DNA of 64,000 bases from Christiangramia flava JLT2011 (lineage in GTDB: Bacteria > Bacteroidota > Bacteroidia > Flavobacteriales > Flavobacteriaceae). This document shows positions 2,644 to 9,137 of the stretch, one piece after another; positions within the stretch are counted from its first letter, which is position 1; each line of letters starts with the position of its first letter. Under the pieces are notes generated by a model. The model was not told the DNA's origin and made no database searches. It was given only the letters and a program-made list of their open reading frames with translations. The position numbers were made by a program, and so were the translations under genes. The stretch is taken from assembly GCF_001951155.1 (NCBI RefSeq), contig NZ_CP016359.1, positions 496,001-560,000 on the forward strand. Reading direction: 5' to 3'.

Positions 2644-3057
2644 TTATATGGATTTTAGAACAAGATCAAAAGAGTATTTTCCGCTTCCCAAAATCAGCAA
2701 AGGCAAATACAGTGATAGATAAAGAAGTCCTAATTCCTTATTTATAAAGGGATCATTGCCATGAATCATAAGGACCGCAACTAACATGGTGATCATTGGT
2801 GCAATAACCGCCAACCGTGTAACCACACCAAAGAAAATAAATATGGAACAAACCACTTCTGCAAATATTGTGAGAAACAGGGAGAATCCTGGGCTAAGGC
2901 CCATCACTCCTGGAAATTGTATTTCTCCACCTGACAATAGCATTTGTAATTTTGGAATTCCGTGCGTAAGCATTAGCGCCGCTACCGCTGCTCTAAGAAC
3001 CAATAGCACAGCATCAACCTGTGAGGGTGAATAGTCCGTTTTAAAGATTTTATTCAT
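2644..3057 (-). CDS. DoxX family membrane protein
   Basis: This 137-residue protein has four hydrophobic segments and the LTHGIPKL and FAEVVCSIFIFFG signatures of the DoxX/SURF4-like family, small inner-membrane proteins often linked to quinone or thiol redox reactions. It is the last cistron of the minus-strand operon and starts 12 bp after the DODA-type gene. Family membership is clear; the substrate is unknown. In this context (two YceI, FrnE-like oxidoreductase, ring-cleaving dioxygenase homologue) a role in redox or electrophile stress is a reasonable inference. Confidence 0.85.
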   Translation of the reverse strand: MNKIFKTDYSPSQVDAVLLVLRAAVAALMLTHGIPKLQMLLSGGEIQFPGVMGLSPGFSLFLTIFAEVVCSIFIFFGVVTRLAVIAPMITMLVAVLMIHGNDPFINKELGLLYLSLYLPLLILGSGKYSFDLVLKSI

Positions 3058-3069
3058 AACTAAATATTT

Positions 3070-3900
3070 TTAACCAATTTTTACTGAAGTCATTGTTAAA
3101 GATCCTGCCACCGCCTTGTCGTTAAAAAAGGTAACCTCATCATTTTCTTTTTTGAGTCCAAGACTATACAAAAGTGGGATATAATGTTCGGGAGTGGGAA
3201 TGGCAAGTTTAGCTTCATGACCTAGATTTTCATAGTTGATTAACTTATAAAAGTCACCGGACAGAATATGCTTCTTAAATCTTTGGTTCATCTCCAGCGC
3301 CCAGTCGTAGCCGTAACCGGGTTCCTCTATTTTATTCCAGGCAACCATACGGAGATTATGCACCATATTGCCACTGCCGATAATCAATACCCCACGTTTT
3401 CTCAACTCAGCCAATTCTTTGGAAAGCTCAAAATGATATCTCGCACTTTTGGTAAGATCAATACTGAGTTGCAATACCGGAATATCGGCTTCAGGATACA
3501 TATGCCTTACCACCGTCCAGGGGCCATGGTCTAAACCCCAATCATGATCTTCTTCTATATGTGTAGATCTTACCAATTCCTTGGTTTGTCTGGCCAGGCC
3601 TGGACTCCCCGGAGCAGGATATTGCACTTCGAAAAGCTCTTTTGGAAAACCTCCAAAATCATGTATTGTCTTAGGAAAATCCATACTGGTAATACGGGTA
3701 CCATGAGATAGCCAGTGGGCCGAAATTACGAGCACTGCCCTGGGAGTGTGGATCTCTTTTGCCATTTTTGTCCACCGGCTACTAAATTCATTATCCTGTA
3801 TCCCATTCATCGGGGAACCATGGCCAATGAAAAGCACTGGCATCTGAGAATCCTGTTTTGGAAGGGAAGATGTGAAATTATTAAAGACAGAAAGTGACAT
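3070..3900 (-). CDS. ygiD: 4,5-DOPA-extradiol-dioxygenase-like protein (YgiD/DODA family)
   Basis: Class III extradiol ring-cleavage dioxygenase family, 276 residues. Family members use a divalent metal to open catechol rings; E. coli YgiD acts on L-DOPA in vitro. Candidate metal or catalytic histidines are H27 in FIGHGSPMN, H62 in ISAHW, H125 in LDHGPW and H181 in GNMVHNL. The start at 3900 is favoured because relatives carry a similar leader of about 20 residues before the MPVLFIGHG strand. It sits between the broken yceI (84 bp upstream, containing a hairpin) and doxX. The natural substrate is not evident; a catechol or quinol would fit the neighbours. Confidence 0.88.
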   Translation of the reverse strand: MSLSVFNNFTSSLPKQDSQMPVLFIGHGSPMNGIQDNEFSSRWTKMAKEIHTPRAVLVISAHWLSHGTRITSMDFPKTIHDFGGFPKELFEVQYPAPGSPGLARQTKELVRSTHIEEDHDWGLDHGPWTVVRHMYPEADIPVLQLSIDLTKSARYHFELSKELAELRKRGVLIIGSGNMVHNLRMVAWNKIEEPGYGYDWALEMNQRFKKHILSGDFYKLINYENLGHEAKLAIPTPEHYIPLLYSLGLKKENDEVTFFNDKAVAGSLTMTSVKIG

Positions 3901-3918
3901 AATTTTAATTTATAAAGG

Positions 3919-3973
3919 GAGGAAGCAGGTAGGGAGATCCAAAACCTCATAAGCTTTCGGACTCTGCTTCCTC
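3919..3973 (-). repeat. Intercistronic inverted repeat after the broken yceI
   Basis: A perfect 10-bp inverted repeat (GAGGAAGCAG at 3919-3928, CTGCTTCCTC at 3964-3973) encloses about 35 nt in the gap between yceI and the dioxygenase gene. Read on the minus strand it has no T-run directly behind it, so an mRNA-stabilising or processing stem is more likely than a strong terminator. Confidence 0.5.
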
Positions 3974-3984
3974 ATTAAAAAATC

Positions 3985-4557
3985 TTATTGTTTTTTGAAT
4001 TCGGTATCAATATCAAGCAAAACATTGTCGCTCAGGACAGCTTCCGGAAAATTGGGACCTAAATTATAATCCGACCTTTTTACATTTCCGGAAATGGCAA
4101 AGCCTGCACTCACCTGTCCGTTCTGAGGGTTTTTCACTTGCCCGCGGTACCATACATCCAAGGTCAAAGGTTTTGTTATTCCATGAAAAGTTAGATTTCC
4201 AGTAACTTTGTATTTGTCTTCTCCAACTTTTTTTGAAGACGTACTTTTAAAAGTCATTTCCGGATATTTTTCAGCATCGAAGAAATCGGGACTCCTTAAA
4301 TGATTATCTCGCATTTCTACTCCTGTATTAATGGAAGGTACCTCTATGGCCATTTCATATTGTGCGTCGCTGAAATCATCTTCCGCCGCCCCGATGGTAC
4401 CGTCAAATTTGTCGAATTTACCTTCAACTTCAGAAATACCCATGTGGATAATACCGAAAGATACCTGAGTATGAGCGGGATCGGCTTTCTAGGTGGTTTG
4501 TGCAAGAGTCGTCGCGCTTAAAAAAGCAATTGTAATTAATGATAGTAGATGTTTCAT
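3985..4557 (-). pseudogene. Secreted YceI family protein interrupted by an in-frame amber codon
   Basis: Reading from ATG 4557 gives a classic signal peptide (MKHLLSLITIAFLSATTLAQ), two threonines, then TAG at 4491-4489, and the YceI fold continues in the same frame to 3985. The stop replaces the tryptophan that opens the YceI domain: the intact paralogue at 6497-7024 reads WKIDPTHS where this gene reads stop-KADPAHT. One G-to-A change (TGG to TAG) explains it. Internal initiation at ATG 4443 would give a 152-residue protein without export signal or first strand, so function is doubtful. YceI proteins are lipocalin-like binders of isoprenoid lipids or quinones. Sequencing error or suppression remain alternatives. 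Confidence 0.85.
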
Positions 4558-4588
4558 TTTATTAAGTTTTATTTTTTATACGTTATTT

Positions 4589-5242
4589 TTAATAGGCCGC
4601 AGTAAACCGCTGGTTAATATGTGCTGCTTTCTCGGCTTCATCCACGAGAACCACCGCGGTATCCTGCACGGAAAGATCACTTTTCCCCTCCGTGTCGAAA
4701 ACAGGTTTGTCAAAGCCTTTTCTGTATTTATTTCTGCGCTCTTGAGGTTTTCCCGGCGCCATTTCAATCGCCGGACTAAAGAAGGTCCAGTTTAATTGGT
4801 CTTCCCCTTTTAGTAACTCAAGGTATTCACAAGCAGCCTTAGCTCCTGGCTTGATGGCTTCCGGGAAATTAGGATCATCTATCACTCGTGTCCTTTCATT
4901 AAGATAAAGACTGCCAGCCCCGCCTACCACAATAAGACGCTTTACCCCCGACTCTTTCACCGCCTGCTGAATGGCCTTTGCGCCTTCAAGGTAGTTCCGG
5001 TAAATATTTGGATTATTCCAGCCAGGATTGAAGGCACTTATCACTACATCATTACCTTTCAGGACTTCGACTAACTTCTCCGTTTGCTTAACGTCAATTG
5101 CCGAGGTTCTTAAAAGCGCACTATTAGCAGAAATTTTTTTTATGTTTCTTGCTACTGCTGTGACTTGATGCCCCCTGTTCAAAGCTTCTTTCAAGACTTC
5201 TGATCCTACAAATCCCGTAGCGCCTATAATTGCAATTTTCAT
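4589..5242 (-). CDS. NAD(P)H-binding oxidoreductase (atypical SDR, YwnB-like)
   Basis: A 217-residue single-domain Rossmann protein. The N-terminal GATGFVGSEV glycine-rich loop (about residues 7-16) and the basic ARN after the second strand (about 31-33) suggest NADP(H). The VVGGAGSLYL segment near residue 100 is typical of the NAD(P)H-binding (PF13460-like) family related to YwnB and flavin reductases. It starts 12 bp after the FrnE-like gene in the stress operon. The substrate is unknown; relatives reduce quinones or flavins or act as redox sensors. Confidence 0.82.
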   Translation of the reverse strand: MKIAIIGATGFVGSEVLKEALNRGHQVTAVARNIKKISANSALLRTSAIDVKQTEKLVEVLKGNDVVISAFNPGWNNPNIYRNYLEGAKAIQQAVKESGVKRLIVVGGAGSLYLNERTRVIDDPNFPEAIKPGAKAACEYLELLKGEDQLNWTFFSPAIEMAPGKPQERRNKYRKGFDKPVFDTEGKSDLSVQDTAVVLVDEAEKAAHINQRFTAAY

Positions 5243-5254
5243 TTGATAATTTTT

Positions 5255-5947
5255 TTAATTACAGTTTCTATCCCTTGAACAGGAATCACCTTCAAAAATT
5301 TTTAATTCAGGTTTTCTTTCTTCCCAAACCTTTTCTAACGTTTCTAAAAAAGCTTCAACAGGCTGAGCTCCGGAAATAGCATATTTATCATCGAAAACAA
5401 AGAAAGGAACGCCTCGCACCCCAATATTTTGTGCTTCCATTTCATCCTGCTTCACTTCGTAAGCGAAAGCATCAGATTTCAATTTTTCTCGGACTTCTTC
5501 GCCCTTCATCCCAATAGATTCACTGATCAACGCGAGAACTTCGATATCATCAATATTCCTTGCTTCTTCAAAATGAGCTCTAAATAGTGCTTCTTCGATT
5601 TCATTGCCCAACCCTTTTGTCTTTGCCAGTTGAATGAGTTGGTGCGCCCTAAATGAATTTGCGAGAATTCCCTTTTCTATATTCAGATTTATTCCTACTT
5701 CCTCAGCCATACTAATGGCTCCATGGAACATTTGCCTTGCCTGGGCTTTGGTTACCCCTTTTATCTTAACAAAATAATCCAAAGTGCTGGTATTAGGATC
5801 TGTGTGTAAGGAAGGATCAAGCTGAAAACTTTTCCAGACGATCTCCACCTGATCTCGTTGGGGAAATTTTTCGAGTGCTGCCTCCAATTTTTTCTTTCCT
5901 ATATAGCAGAAAGGACATCTAATATCTGACCAAATTTTTATTTCCAT
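5255..5947 (-). CDS. FrnE-like DsbA family thiol oxidoreductase
   Basis: A 230-residue cytoplasmic DsbA-fold protein without signal peptide. The redox motif CPFC lies at residues 11-14 directly after the first strand, and a cis-proline segment GVRGVPFFVF lies near 183-192. The extreme C terminus carries a second cysteine pair, C-x5-C (C223, C229), reminiscent of the extra cysteine motif of Deinococcus FrnE. Family knowledge points to disulfide exchange under oxidative stress. It is 6 bp from the preceding gene and 12 bp from the next, so it is tightly co-transcribed. Confidence 0.9.
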   Translation of the reverse strand: MEIKIWSDIRCPFCYIGKKKLEAALEKFPQRDQVEIVWKSFQLDPSLHTDPNTSTLDYFVKIKGVTKAQARQMFHGAISMAEEVGINLNIEKGILANSFRAHQLIQLAKTKGLGNEIEEALFRAHFEEARNIDDIEVLALISESIGMKGEEVREKLKSDAFAYEVKQDEMEAQNIGVRGVPFFVFDDKYAISGAQPVEAFLETLEKVWEERKPELKIFEGDSCSRDRNCN

Positions 5948-5953
5948 ATCTAT

Positions 5954-6430
5954 TTAATTTACTGTGTAACCCGATACTTCAAAAAGTTGACGAATTTCTT
6001 GTTTCGCTACAACTTCTTTACTGCTAAGGGATACTTCCTTTAAATTCTCTTGGATGCTAATTTCTACTACCCTTGAATTAGGAAGCTGTTGTTGTAGGTC
6101 AACCTTTCTTCCGTGACTATCAACGGGTGATATTACCCATACCGGCTTTTGAGTAGCCACCTCTTTTACCTTTTTAATCATATCTTTTGAAGGCGGTGCC
6201 TGCATAGAGATTAAAATTTTATCGGCTTCCCAGCATCCATCCTTTTCACAGCCTATAAAATCTATTTCAGCCTTTAACTTTAAAAAATTTAAGCTTTTTT
6301 GAAGGTGCTCCTTTGTCTCAGCATTTCCAACAACAAAAAGCAACCGATGGTTAGAACTGCCTAGAACCTCAAAAAATTCCGGGGCTAGCCCCTCGCTATC
6401 ACTTAAAATCGCTATTGTTTTTGTTGCCAT
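5954..6430 (-). CDS. Diverged Rossmann-like protein of the stress operon
   Basis: A 158-residue protein without a firm family assignment. Alternating strands and helices suggest a Rossmann-like domain. A central stretch (CEKDGCWEADKILIS, then KKVKEVATQKPVWVIS) resembles my recollection of flavobacterial F420-dependent NADP-oxidoreductase-like proteins, but the N-terminal glycine-rich loop is absent (SDSEGLAPEFF at the expected place), so nucleotide binding may be lost. It lies between yceI and the FrnE-like gene with a 6 bp gap to the latter. It could be a regulatory or scaffold relative of a dinucleotide-binding enzyme. Confidence 0.6.
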   Translation of the reverse strand: MATKTIAILSDSEGLAPEFFEVLGSSNHRLLFVVGNAETKEHLQKSLNFLKLKAEIDFIGCEKDGCWEADKILISMQAPPSKDMIKKVKEVATQKPVWVISPVDSHGRKVDLQQQLPNSRVVEISIQENLKEVSLSSKEVVAKQEIRQLFEVSGYTVN

Positions 6431-6496: not shown

Positions 6497-7024
6497 TTAA
6501 GCCTGTTTTATAAATTGAACATCGACGTTTAGTCTAACCTGGTCACTTACCACTACGCTACCAGCCTCGGTAACAGCATTCCATTTTAATCCGAAATCTT
6601 TTCGATTGATTTTCCCGCTTACTGTCAATCCGGCTTTCGTTTGGCCGTAGGGGTCTTCCACTACTCCCCCAAATTCAACCTCAAGCGTGACAGGCTTTGT
6701 GGTATTTCTAATAGTCAGCTCTCCATGAAGTTCTTCTGAATTCACATCAAAACTTTCGGCCTTAAAGACCAATTGTGGATGCTCCTCTGCGGCAAAAAAA
6801 TCGTCAGATTTCAAATGCTCATCACGGTCCTTATTATTGGTATCGATCGATTTTACATCCGCTTTGAATTCGATATTTTTTAATTTTTTAAAATCATCCC
6901 CCTCACTCTCAACTTCACCTTCAAAAGCTTTAAACTTTCCGGTTACCGTAGAAATCATGAGGTGTTTTACTTTAAAAGTAGCTTCACTGTGAGTTGGATC
7001 AATTTTCCATTTTGTAGTTGCCAT
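6497..7024 (-). CDS. Cytoplasmic YceI family protein
   Basis: A 175-residue YceI/lipocalin-like beta-barrel. The domain opens at residue 6 (WKIDPTHSEATFKVKHLMIS) with no signal peptide, unlike the broken paralogue at 3985-4557. Conserved internal features such as DRDEHLKSDDFF and the closing GLTVSGKINRKDFGL strand are present. Family members bind isoprenoid quinones or related lipids, and several are induced by stress. It is the first cistron of the operon, 87 bp downstream of a Crp-type operator and behind a good -7 box, and is probably the most highly expressed member. Confidence 0.92.
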   Translation of the reverse strand: MATTKWKIDPTHSEATFKVKHLMISTVTGKFKAFEGEVESEGDDFKKLKNIEFKADVKSIDTNNKDRDEHLKSDDFFAAEEHPQLVFKAESFDVNSEELHGELTIRNTTKPVTLEVEFGGVVEDPYGQTKAGLTVSGKINRKDFGLKWNAVTEAGSVVVSDQVRLNVDVQFIKQA

Positions 7025-7060
7025 AATTTTTGTTTTTAGATTAATAATTTATTTATGATA

Positions 7061-7092
7061 CAAATGTATGACCAGACACCGCTTGAGACCAA
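7061..7092 (-). promoter_or_regulatory. Predicted promoter of the yceI stress operon
   Basis: The minus strand reads TACATTTG (7068-7061), a full match to the Bacteroidota -7 consensus TAnnTTTG, with TTG at 7092-7090 spaced by 21 nt. The expected transcript start is about 30 nt before the yceI ATG. Confidence 0.6.
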
Positions 7093-7110
7093 TGACCTAT
7101 GATAAGAAAT

Positions 7111-7132
7111 AAGTGTGATCTATATCACACTT
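7111..7132. promoter_or_regulatory. Crp-type operator (TGTGA-N6-TCACA)
   Basis: A 22-bp near-perfect palindrome (10 of 11 base pairs) with core TGTGATCTATATCACA matches the E. coli CRP consensus. It is centred about 66 bp upstream of the predicted start site, close to a class I activator position. The adjacent Crp/Fnr regulator has a recognition helix with the RExxxR pattern used by CRP to read TGTGA, so it is the obvious candidate ligand. Confidence 0.8.
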
Positions 7133-7177
7133 TTTCCTTAATGACTTGTTAATAGAGGTAAGGTATCTTTCCGATTT

Positions 7178-7747
7178 TTAATGCAGTTGACTGCGCAATC
7201 GGCTTAATGTTTCTCGGGTGACCCCTATATAGGACGCAATCATGTGTTGGGGAACCCTTTGAGAGATATCGGGAAAATCATGAAGTAACTTAAGATAACG
7301 TTCTTCTGCCGTGGTACTCATGGTGTCCATGAGCCTTCGTTGTGTGGCAATTAAATTATTCTGAATAAGAATGCGAAAATACCGTTCAAAAGCAGGTATC
7401 TCCTTAAGCAGTAAGTCCCAGGAATCTTTGGTTATAAGCAGTAGTTCGCTATCCTCCATAGCTTCAATATTGTAGTCTGATGTTTCCCCGGTAAAAAAAC
7501 TGTAAAGATCTGCTGCCCACCATCCCTGCATAGAAAACTGCAAAATGTGCTCATTTCCTTTATCGTCTATGGTGAAACTTCTGAGCAGCCCCTTCTCTAC
7601 AAAAGAAGTATAAACACAGCTATCTCCATCCTCTAAAAGAAAACGCTTCTTTCTAAGTTTCTTAGGAATGAATAAGGTTTTTGCATATTCAAATTCTTCA
7701 CTAGAAAGGCTAATTGTTTCATTTAACTTTTTTAGAACTTCAAACAT
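7178..7747 (-). CDS. Crp/Fnr family transcriptional regulator
   Basis: A 189-residue regulator with an N-terminal cyclic-nucleotide-binding-like beta-roll (about residues 20-120), a long dimer helix and a C-terminal winged helix (about 150-189). The HTH segment PQHMIASYIGVTRETLSRLR carries R-E-x-x-x-R at the positions that contact TGTGA in E. coli CRP. Most cAMP-contacting residues are not recognisable, and no cysteine cluster for an Fnr iron-sulfur centre is seen, so the signal is unknown. It lies 153 bp upstream of the yceI operon, on the same strand, with the Crp-type palindrome in the gap. Confidence 0.9.
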   Translation of the reverse strand: MFEVLKKLNETISLSSEEFEYAKTLFIPKKLRKKRFLLEDGDSCVYTSFVEKGLLRSFTIDDKGNEHILQFSMQGWWAADLYSFFTGETSDYNIEAMEDSELLLITKDSWDLLLKEIPAFERYFRILIQNNLIATQRRLMDTMSTTAEERYLKLLHDFPDISQRVPQHMIASYIGVTRETLSRLRSQLH

Positions 7748-7865
7748 TTTACTTTTTGTAACTAATAACCTTAATTAACTTCTGAAAGGTCCCATAAATG
7801 TAGAAAATCATCAATGATTAGATTTTATTTATTCTAATTAATTTCCCGTATAGTATAAAACTATC

Positions 7866-9137
7866 TTACCTGAAAGAAATTGGAGGCTTCTTTCTTCGGT
7901 AGGTATATACATTATATTCACATAGATAAACAGCCACTTGTTTAGCTACGAACACTCCTAACAACACAGGTAGAAAAAGAATGAATCCCTGGGCAACGAT
8001 ATTACAAGTTAAAAATAAAGCGGTTAGAGGAGCATGAATGGCGGCGCTTAGCATTGCGGCAGCTCCTATCAGGGCAAAATTTAGCACTATAAGGTGCGTA
8101 CCGAAAAAATAATTACAAAAAAGTGCAAGCATAATCCCTAGAAAAGCGCCGGTGACAATGCTGGGTGCGAAAACTCCTCCATCACCACCTCCACCCAGGG
8201 TAATGGAGGCTGCCAAAGGTTTCAATAAAACCAGTAAAAATAAACACCCAATACTTCCCATGGAAAAATTATTGCTGAACGCAGTAATTAGTGGAACCAG
8301 GGCATGGTAACTATCACCATAAAGGGCCGGTAAAAAGAAAATGACCACTCCAAGCAATAGCGCACTGCTAAGTACCCTGAGAAGCTTATTCATGCCGGAA
8401 AATCTTTCTTTAATAAAGATGACGCTTTTGGTGAAATACACCGCGACCATCCCTGCCAGCAGGCTGAGGACGATCATAAAAGGAATCGCTTTCACTTTAT
8501 AATGAGTGACGCTGAGATCAAAAAGAGGCTGACTATCAAAAAAGAAGACGAATATCCATGCCAGGAAAGCTGATATCGCACAACTTAAGATCATAGTCTT
8601 TGTTAGTTTTCTGGAGATCACCTCCACCGCAAAAAGAAATCCGGCTATGGGACTGCCAAACAGGACGGTTATGCCTGCCGCTACCCCGGCTGAAACCAGT
8701 TCAGTTTTGTAAATATTGGCAACCGATTCTTTTCTGTATATCGAAGCTCCTAAGGCTGCCGTTGCCACCACCGTTGACACCTCTATACCCGTTGAACCTC
8801 CAAAGACTACCGTAAAAAAACCATTGATATAATGGGAAGGTACTTTGTAGAAGGGCAATTCATCCTTGCGGTATTTCAGGGTTTGAAAGATCTCTTTGAT
8901 CCCTTTGTTCTTTCTTCCGCGGAAGAGATACTTCCTAAATAAATAAATTAGGCTGATCCCTATGACCGGCGCAATAATGTAAAGAAAAGGAACATGTCGC
9001 AATTCTTCTATTAAAAATTCCTCAGAAAAAGCAGTGATTTTCTTGAGACTGTATCCCAGAAGGGTCGCTAAAATTCCCACCAGGATAGAACCCATCACAA
9101 GACTGTAATATCCCTTTTTAATAGTTTTCTTTTTCAT
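7866..9137 (-). CDS. ClC family chloride channel/transporter
   Basis: A 423-residue integral membrane protein of the ClC fold without cytoplasmic CBS domains. The gating glutamate is E119 in TGIEVSTV (the GREGP equivalent), and GGVFAP (320-325) supplies the GxFxP anion motif. In GSPIAGFLFAVEVISR the residue after E172 is valine, where exchangers such as CLC-ec1 have the internal proton glutamate E203. That suggests a channel or uncoupled transporter (inference). It is transcribed alone, followed by the Crp/Fnr gene 118 bp downstream. Confidence 0.9.
   Translation of the reverse strand: MKKKTIKKGYYSLVMGSILVGILATLLGYSLKKITAFSEEFLIEELRHVPFLYIIAPVIGISLIYLFRKYLFRGRKNKGIKEIFQTLKYRKDELPFYKVPSHYINGFFTVVFGGSTGIEVSTVVATAALGASIYRKESVANIYKTELVSAGVAAGITVLFGSPIAGFLFAVEVISRKLTKTMILSCAISAFLAWIFVFFFDSQPLFDLSVTHYKVKAIPFMIVLSLLAGMVAVYFTKSVIFIKERFSGMNKLLRVLSSALLLGVVIFFLPALYGDSYHALVPLITAFSNNFSMGSIGCLFLLVLLKPLAASITLGGGGDGGVFAPSIVTGAFLGIMLALFCNYFFGTHLIVLNFALIGAAAMLSAAIHAPLTALFLTCNIVAQGFILFLPVLLGVFVAKQVAVYLCEYNVYTYRRKKPPISFR

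Follow-up and report, generated by a model that had tools for sequence, protein, structure and literature searches.

Does the Crp/Fnr-type regulator encoded beside a CRP-like palindrome bind that palindrome, and which genes would it then control in response to which signal? The question arises in the window (the whole stretch of 64,000 nucleotides analysed here), where TGTGATCTATATCACA (7114-7129) lies between the regulator gene and the YceI1 gene, both on the minus strand. To our knowledge, few regulator-operator pairs are known in Bacteroidota, and promoters in this phylum are unlike those of E. coli.

The palindrome and the genes behind it

A sequence-only reading had placed a TGTGA-N6-TCACA palindrome 87 bp before the first gene, and this proved correct: the extended palindrome has perfect arms of 9 bp each (7111-7119 and 7124-7132) around a 4-base centre, and 87 bases separate its end from the ATG at 7024. 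By itself the palindrome is not significant, because neither its exact nor its two-mismatch counts rise above chance. The genome scan for the same palindrome which that reading had proposed found one exact copy in 4.0 Mb (4,007,868 bases), that of the window, with about 3.8 expected by chance under an even composition, and matches with at most two mismatches in the window numbered 24 against 24.5 expected from shuffled sequence. The case was therefore built on comparison, namely on the place of the palindrome, its conservation and its covariation with the regulator. No Rfam family was found in 6900-7900. Read on the plus strand, the palindrome (7111-7132) followed by a T run is terminator-like, and no listed open reading frame (ORF) of at least 70 aa ends there.

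Seven ORFs run in the same direction downstream of the palindrome (Table 1). Their common direction agrees with the seven-cistron operon proposed earlier, but a stop codon in frame divides the signal peptide of the second YceI gene from its mature domain (4443-4560, minus); the copy in a genome of the same genus (G007) is free of that stop. The 158-aa protein matched no Pfam family at E 0.001, and its counterpart in locus L044, the one tested, is a Rossmann-type NAD(P) protein. Beyond the far end of the operon lies, in convergent orientation, the gene for a quinol nitric oxide reductase (qNor, 75-2315), and no hcp gene is found among the operon genes.

Table 1. Features of the regulator locus, in window coordinates
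Feature	Position	Strand	Remarks
Crp/Fnr-fold regulator, 189 aa	7178..7747	-	helix RETLSR, residues 178-183; single cysteine C44
Distal operator (site 1, predicted)	7114..7129	-	TGTGATATAGATCACA toward the operon; centre about -65.5; counterparts in relatives
Proximal element (site 2) CTTATCATAGGTCATT	7091..7106	-	degenerate, half-site-like; centre about -42.5
TTGG, place of the -33 element	7089..7092	-	about -36 to -33, at the edge of site 2
-7 promoter box TACATTTG	7061..7068	-	perfect TAnnTTTG; transcription start predicted at about 7056
YceI1, YceI family, operon gene 1	6497..7024	-	PF04264, 165 bits
158-aa protein	5954..6430	-	weak similarity (25-31%) to the positionally equivalent genes of L044-L050
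DsbA-like thioredoxin-fold protein	5255..5947	-	PF01323
NAD(P)H-binding protein (NAD_binding_10)	4589..5242	-	PF13460
YceI2, mature part of second YceI	3985..4443	-	PF04264
LigB-family 4,5-DOPA-type extradiol dioxygenase	3070..3900	-	NF007914, 309.6 bits (cut-off 233); PF02900
DoxX membrane protein, last operon gene	2644..3057	-	PF07681

The regulator and its recognition helix

The neighbouring protein has the features of the Crp/Fnr superfamily (cNMP beta-roll, dimer helix and C-terminal helix-turn-helix), with PF00027 scoring above its cut-off and PF13545 below; its AlphaFold2 model is predicted to adopt the Crp/Fnr fold, with structure matches spanning residues 1-189, and it has no C-terminal wing after the recognition helix. 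The base contacts of E. coli CRP are R180, E181 and R185, according to the accessible text of the source (PMC12531629), and they are matched by R178, E179 and R183 of the regulator, which bears out the RExxxR recognition helix noticed before. The genome encodes seven cNMP-binding proteins, one of them in a 657-residue frame; among the helices read, those of the six others, RExxxR occurs in the window regulator alone, and the other five are VETVIR, PESLIR, RAVVNR and, in two proteins, RVVVSR. The VETVIR regulator is encoded at G000:C1:493867-494130, about 2 kb before the window and upstream of qNor.

CRP binds cAMP through E72, R82 and S83, and the Fe-S cluster of E. coli FNR is held by four cysteines. 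In a profile alignment the regulator has D80, S90 and D91 at the three CRP positions, and at the position equivalent to R82 all 104 proteins used for the tree carry S, A or T. The earlier statements that the protein has neither an obvious cAMP pocket nor Fe-S cysteines both hold, as equivalents of R82 and S83 are absent and C44 is the only cysteine; cAMP is unlikely as the signal, and FNR-type Fe-S sensing was rejected on account of this single cysteine. C44 is conserved in 19 of 20 window-clade proteins and in 53 of 63 non-R proteins, and in none of 21 other RETLSR proteins, and thiol sensing through this residue is no more than a possibility.

Conservation of the site and covariation with the helix

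Near relatives with RETLSR carry TGTGACATAGATCACA, or a variant differing in one or two bases, at the same place. They include same-genus G007, Salinimicrobium, Galbibacter, an uncultured Flavobacteriaceae genome and Flavisolibacter, which we take to belong to a different order. The start of the site is 91-109 bases from the start of YceI1 in eight loci, the window counted; the long distance in L042 (the uncultured Flavobacteriaceae genome) is due to a DDE_Tnp_1 transposase gene (3210-4652) between the promoter, with its site and -7 box, and YceI1. A scan of 11 genomes with TGTGAYATAGRTCACA gave 12 places at no more than one mismatch, ten of them adjoining a regulator of this kind or its YceI operon; the other two fall inside a cinA gene and inside a 377-aa frame without Pfam match, and the operon site of G025 (L038) has two mismatches to the query. 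In G007 (loci L031, L032, L033, L035 and L118) there are three full regulator copies (98, 89 and 64% identity) plus broken or partial pieces, and a second YceI1 operon is preceded by the exact 16-base site about 7 kb from the nearest full copy. In Galbibacter, the site TGTGATGTAGATCACA separates a second RETLSR regulator from a RidA-family (Ribonuc_L-PSP) gene (L129, 1054-2461), and this locus adjoins a gene for an HxlR-type regulator.

To relate helix and site, we sought xTGA-N6-TCAy (x and y complementary) within 400 bp on either side of 186 distinct regulators among the matches listed in the genome searches, whose two class samples may contain the same genomes. Matches weaker than 1e-25, proteins shorter than 150 aa or with a stop and six identical proteins (L040, L041, L084, L160, L168 and L189) were dropped, and L001, L002, L003, L024, L036 and L117-L143 were left out because they repeated other loci or were pattern hits. 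Among the matches listed, the 41 RETLSR regulators had a G-type site (GTGA-N6-TCAC) in 26 cases, a T-type site (TTGA-N6-TCAA) in three, both in one and none in 11, the 63 regulators with (P/Q/K/H)ETxSR had a T-type site in 56, none in seven and a G-type site in no case, and the 82 with any other helix had a T-type site in three and none in 79. A later sample (27 of 108 listed places read; the first set had already covered another three) added 29 regulators, 22 with PETxSR (20 T-type, no G-type) and seven with other helices (one T-type, L270); as it contains no RETxSR regulator, only one half of the rule is put to the test. Fisher's p for the pairing is 7e-19, a value uncorrected for kinship and not readable as a probability. 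On a tree of the 104 proteins built with the helix columns excluded, R needs 4 changes against about 32 in shuffles, and the window clade (20 R proteins, SH-aLRT 89) is nested among P proteins; the association is not independent of kinship, with two to three independent pairs, a number at which a sign test is uninformative.

The PETLSR regulators of L044-L050 (Pontibacter, Cnuella, Terrimonas and Taibaiella) have TTGA-N6-TCAA sites in 7/7 cases, and their operons contain the 158-aa relative (7/7), YceI (six), DoxX (five) and LigB (five). Exceptions to the rule are found among RETLSR regulators with a symmetric T-type site (L034, L085 and L182). L034 also has a G-type site before an NAD(P)H-binding gene plus a mixed site, L182 combines a mixed GTGA...TCAA site at 53.5 bp with a T-type site at 30.5 bp, and mixed half-sites occur in L033, L170 and L217 (which shares its protein sequence with L041). 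L085, which sits on a long branch, has TTGA...TCAA alone and contradicts the rule. In view of these exceptions, R178 would favour G, mostly in the distal half, and tolerate T. The pairing adds an example to a rule already described: in 2005 HcpR was reported to follow a residue-base code that matches R180 to G3 and either Ser or Pro to T (PMC1274295, in the portion available).

The helix-site covariation supports the earlier proposal that operator and neighbouring regulator are matched by way of the recognition helix. Because the palindrome and one regulator residue covary in relatives while the distance to the promoter is fixed, the palindrome is very likely the adjacent regulator's own binding site, and an operator-regulator pair of a known kind is well supported by the comparison.

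A promoter register in steps of 23 bp

The -7 box that had been called good is a perfect TAnnTTTG (7068-7061, minus), and its first T lies 53.5 bp from the palindrome centre. Such boxes span -12 to -5 in F. johnsoniae (PMC6847099) and likewise in F. psychrophilum (PMC9723704), as far as the accessible parts of both sources go, and site centres therefore fall at -41.5/-42.5, -64.5/-65.5 and about -87.5. A symmetric site follows the regulator in 79 loci, and 42 of these have an exact TAnnTTTG box 52-55 bp from the site centre (43 if a box at 51.5 bp is counted too), against a mean of 0.1 and a maximum of 1 in 200 base-shufflings of the flanks; the box stands at 75.5-76.5 bp in six and at 29.5-30.5 bp in three, and an exact box is missing from the scanned stretch in 27.

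Across relatives the sites form a ladder of 23-bp steps locked to this box, the nearest at -41.5/-42.5, and three sites are visible in L197, L199, L200 and L202. Site 2 of the window is likewise 23 bp downstream of site 1, a register kept in relatives, and with the start predicted, site 1 is centred at -65.5 in the window and at -64.5 or -65.5 in most two-site relatives. Scored against TTGA-N6-TCAA, the 43 promoters with two sites show their peak for centres 29.5 and 30.5 bp away from the box: at least 6/8 positions match in 12 loci at 29.5 bp and in 17 at 30.5 bp, in none at both, and in 0 to 3 loci at each of the remaining registers from 15.5 to 47.5 bp (-27.5 to -59.5). A second site of this quality is present in 26/29 non-R promoters and in 3/14 R promoters; that of the window scores 5/8 against TTGA/TCAA. 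In most window-clade R members site 2 reads TTATCATAGGTCATTG, which is conserved and half-site-like, and the R-type consensus at the -33 region is TCATTGg. These steps recur in the later sample, where L249 and L257 each have two full palindromes at a spacing of 23 bp; L255, L256 and L260 carry their sites on the upstream side of the regulator, and there the closest box on the scanned strand is off the steps.

In Crp-type activation, the centre of a class I site lies at -61.5 or a whole number of helical turns beyond, and that of a class II site near -41.5 over the -35/-33 element. The class I distance of the sequence-only reading needs modification, the centre being computed at about -65.5 rather than -61.5 from the predicted start, and 'class I' is not the best label because a conserved degenerate element at -42.5 accompanies the palindrome. 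Moreover, E. coli CRP activates at class I sites through its AR1 surface, which is reported as restricted to Gammaproteobacteria in the available part of PMC12531629.

The same geometry bears on whether the regulator would activate or repress. It might bind and repress, the proximal element covering the -33 region and site 1 adding cooperativity, and both the overlap of that element with the -33 position and the precedent of the quinone regulators YodB, CatR and MhqR, described as repressors in the text accessible to us (PMC6798810), speak for this. However, activators typically show such a fixed register, here in 23-bp steps, and a class II position. Repressor sites usually allow more positions than activator sites do, and we consider repression unlikely, though the likeliest of the alternatives considered.

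Gene content and the probable signal

The Pfam scan of downstream genes covered YceI1 of the window and 53 of 73 ORFs (near copies were left out), five further loci being without a qualifying ORF. The first genes after the site in these 54 loci mostly encode NAD(P)-binding proteins, with overlapping hits to F420_oxidored (19), adh_short (18) and NmrA (12), besides YceI (10) and DJ-1/PfpI (6). In L042 and L043, MhqO-like dioxygenases and Abhydrolase_2 proteins, which we presume to resemble MhqD and call MhqD-like, are encoded behind a GTGA-type site and YceI1; the MhqO-like protein of L042 matches a solved protein that bears the name MhqO at 8.6e-87 and 2,6-dichloro-p-hydroquinone 1,2-dioxygenase at 3.2e-51. 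MhqO-like genes adjoin window-clade regulators also in L041/L217, L181 and L183, lie 2.5 kb upstream in L038, and accompany Crp/Fnr regulators of other types in L187, L180 and six Parapedobacter loci. In total they occur in 10/86 long and 5/128 short loci, most loci of the family being without a nearby copy, and a search of the window's own genome, run without positive control, found none.

In the six Parapedobacter loci (L053, L068, L073, L075, L077 and L083) regulators of a PEFLSK type are divergent from MhqO-/MhqD-like genes. A search up to 500 bp from these regulators found no TGA-N6-TCA palindrome, and for this reason they probably use a different operator.

In B. subtilis, such dioxygenases and reductases serve quinone detoxification under MarR-type repressors (accessible text of PMC6798810). 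The MhqO-/MhqD-like genes of some relatives, together with the reductases and DJ-1 proteins, favour a role in quinone or electrophile detoxification, and a quinone or similar electrophile would be the likeliest inducer. The redox/quinone theme of the sequence-only reading is in this way supported by the gene content of the window and of its relatives.

The presence of qNor at the far end of the operon could point instead to nitric oxide, to which Crp/Fnr regulators such as HcpR and DNR respond. The Desulfovibrio HcpR has the same palindrome, as stated in the portion of PMC1274295 available. Against this, qNor is convergent with the operon, a different Crp/Fnr gene (that with VETVIR) lies about 2 kb upstream of it, and among 12 loci, several of them short, qNor was seen only in same-genus L031; the link through qNor was rejected as weak on this comparison, and nitric oxide is an improbable signal.

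Other possible uses of the palindrome

The palindrome lies about 45 bases past the stop codon of the regulator gene and could be the intrinsic terminator of this gene rather than an operator. Both strands give it a terminator-like score (the kilobase examined has 3 such sites, against a shuffled mean of 0.6), and the RNA of the minus strand has a folding energy of -18.8 kcal/mol (z -3.05). Yet the T run on the minus strand is poor, and 14 window-clade sites keep the inner stem pairs in 5 and 1 cases and the outer pairs in 10 and 6, the GTGA/TCAC core pairs being present through the search rule. Moreover, PETLSR relatives carry TTGA-N6-TCAA at the same place, the distance to the regulator stop varies while that to the -7 box is fixed, and in G007 the site also stands before the second YceI operon, with about 7 kb between it and the closest full regulator copy. 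A terminator alone was rejected on the poor T run and the stem pairs not kept beyond the core, and we give it a slim chance; the palindrome may serve as both operator and terminator. That the real user is another regulator, for example cAMP-bound CRP, is very improbable: the palindrome equals the E. coli CRP consensus and the genome encodes one class III cyclase, but none of the other five helices read there is RExxxR, the single genome copy is unlike a global CRP regulon and the type of site tracks the helix of the adjacent gene, and a cAMP-CRP regulon was rejected on the missing R82 equivalent and the one exact genome site.

Proposed mechanism and its implications

From the computed sites, register, helix-site pairing and gene content we infer binding, activation rather than repression, cooperativity and the kind of signal, as follows. 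A dimer of the regulator would bind the palindrome, as its main site, through R178, E179 and R183, and a second dimer, or an extended complex, would occupy the weak element 23 bp nearer to the promoter, over the -33 region. The complex would activate the TAnnTTTG promoter of the detoxification operon from a class II position. The signal would most likely be a reactive electrophile or oxidant, for example a quinone, which the cAMP-like domain would sense in a cAMP-free manner, possibly through C44. We assign this joint reading a probability of roughly 0.7, slightly lowered because site 2 is weak in R members (5/8 in the window).

Extending the proposal to a widespread Bacteroidota family of cAMP-independent, quinone- or electrophile-sensing activators of detoxification operons, with ladders of one to three dimers in 23-bp steps tied to the -7 box and an R/P operator toggle, is tentative, and we hold it at somewhat less than even odds. 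If it is true, an R or P residue in the helix would toggle between CRP- and FNR-type operators while the kind of target gene is kept. The helix residue, the half-site and the promoter register form a readable code across dozens of genomes, with a natural change from CRP-type to FNR-type operators inside one family, and the locus offers a direct test case for class II activation on a TAnnTTTG promoter.

Comparison with known systems

In the open-access literature, which leaves subscription journals mostly outside its coverage, we found no paper on this regulator-operator system; nor did the papers searched report the family-wide tandem layout or the probable quinone/electrophile role. The protein of Cytophaga hutchinsonii in PDB 3dn7 differs in its helix, aligned as PEYLSE. 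The window regulator shares with E. coli CRP the fold, the R180/E181/R185 helix contacts and the TGTGA-N6-TCACA site; it differs in lacking equivalents of R82 and S83 and the C-terminal wing, and in having one exact genome site in place of a global regulon, and a Bacteroidota-type promoter.

The HcpR regulators of Desulfovibrio and other deltaproteobacteria resemble it in pairing wTGTGAnnnnnnTCACAw with R180, and TTGAC-type sites with Ser or Pro in its place, as far as the available text of PMC1274295 describes them. Their targets there are hcp/frdX and nitrogen-oxide genes, whereas the presumed targets of the window family are YceI, reductases and dioxygenases, and the tandem 23-bp ladder is not mentioned for HcpR in that text.

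YodB, CatR, QsrR and MhqR control ring-cleavage dioxygenases and reductases, and MhqO-/MhqD-like genes stand behind the site in some relatives of the window regulator. Those proteins are MarR-type repressors, whereas the window regulator belongs to the Crp/Fnr type; if its signal is a quinone, it would add a regulator family to quinone stress and, should the family-wide proposal hold, its family would be to the Crp/Fnr proteins what the quinone repressors of Firmicutes are to the MarR type.
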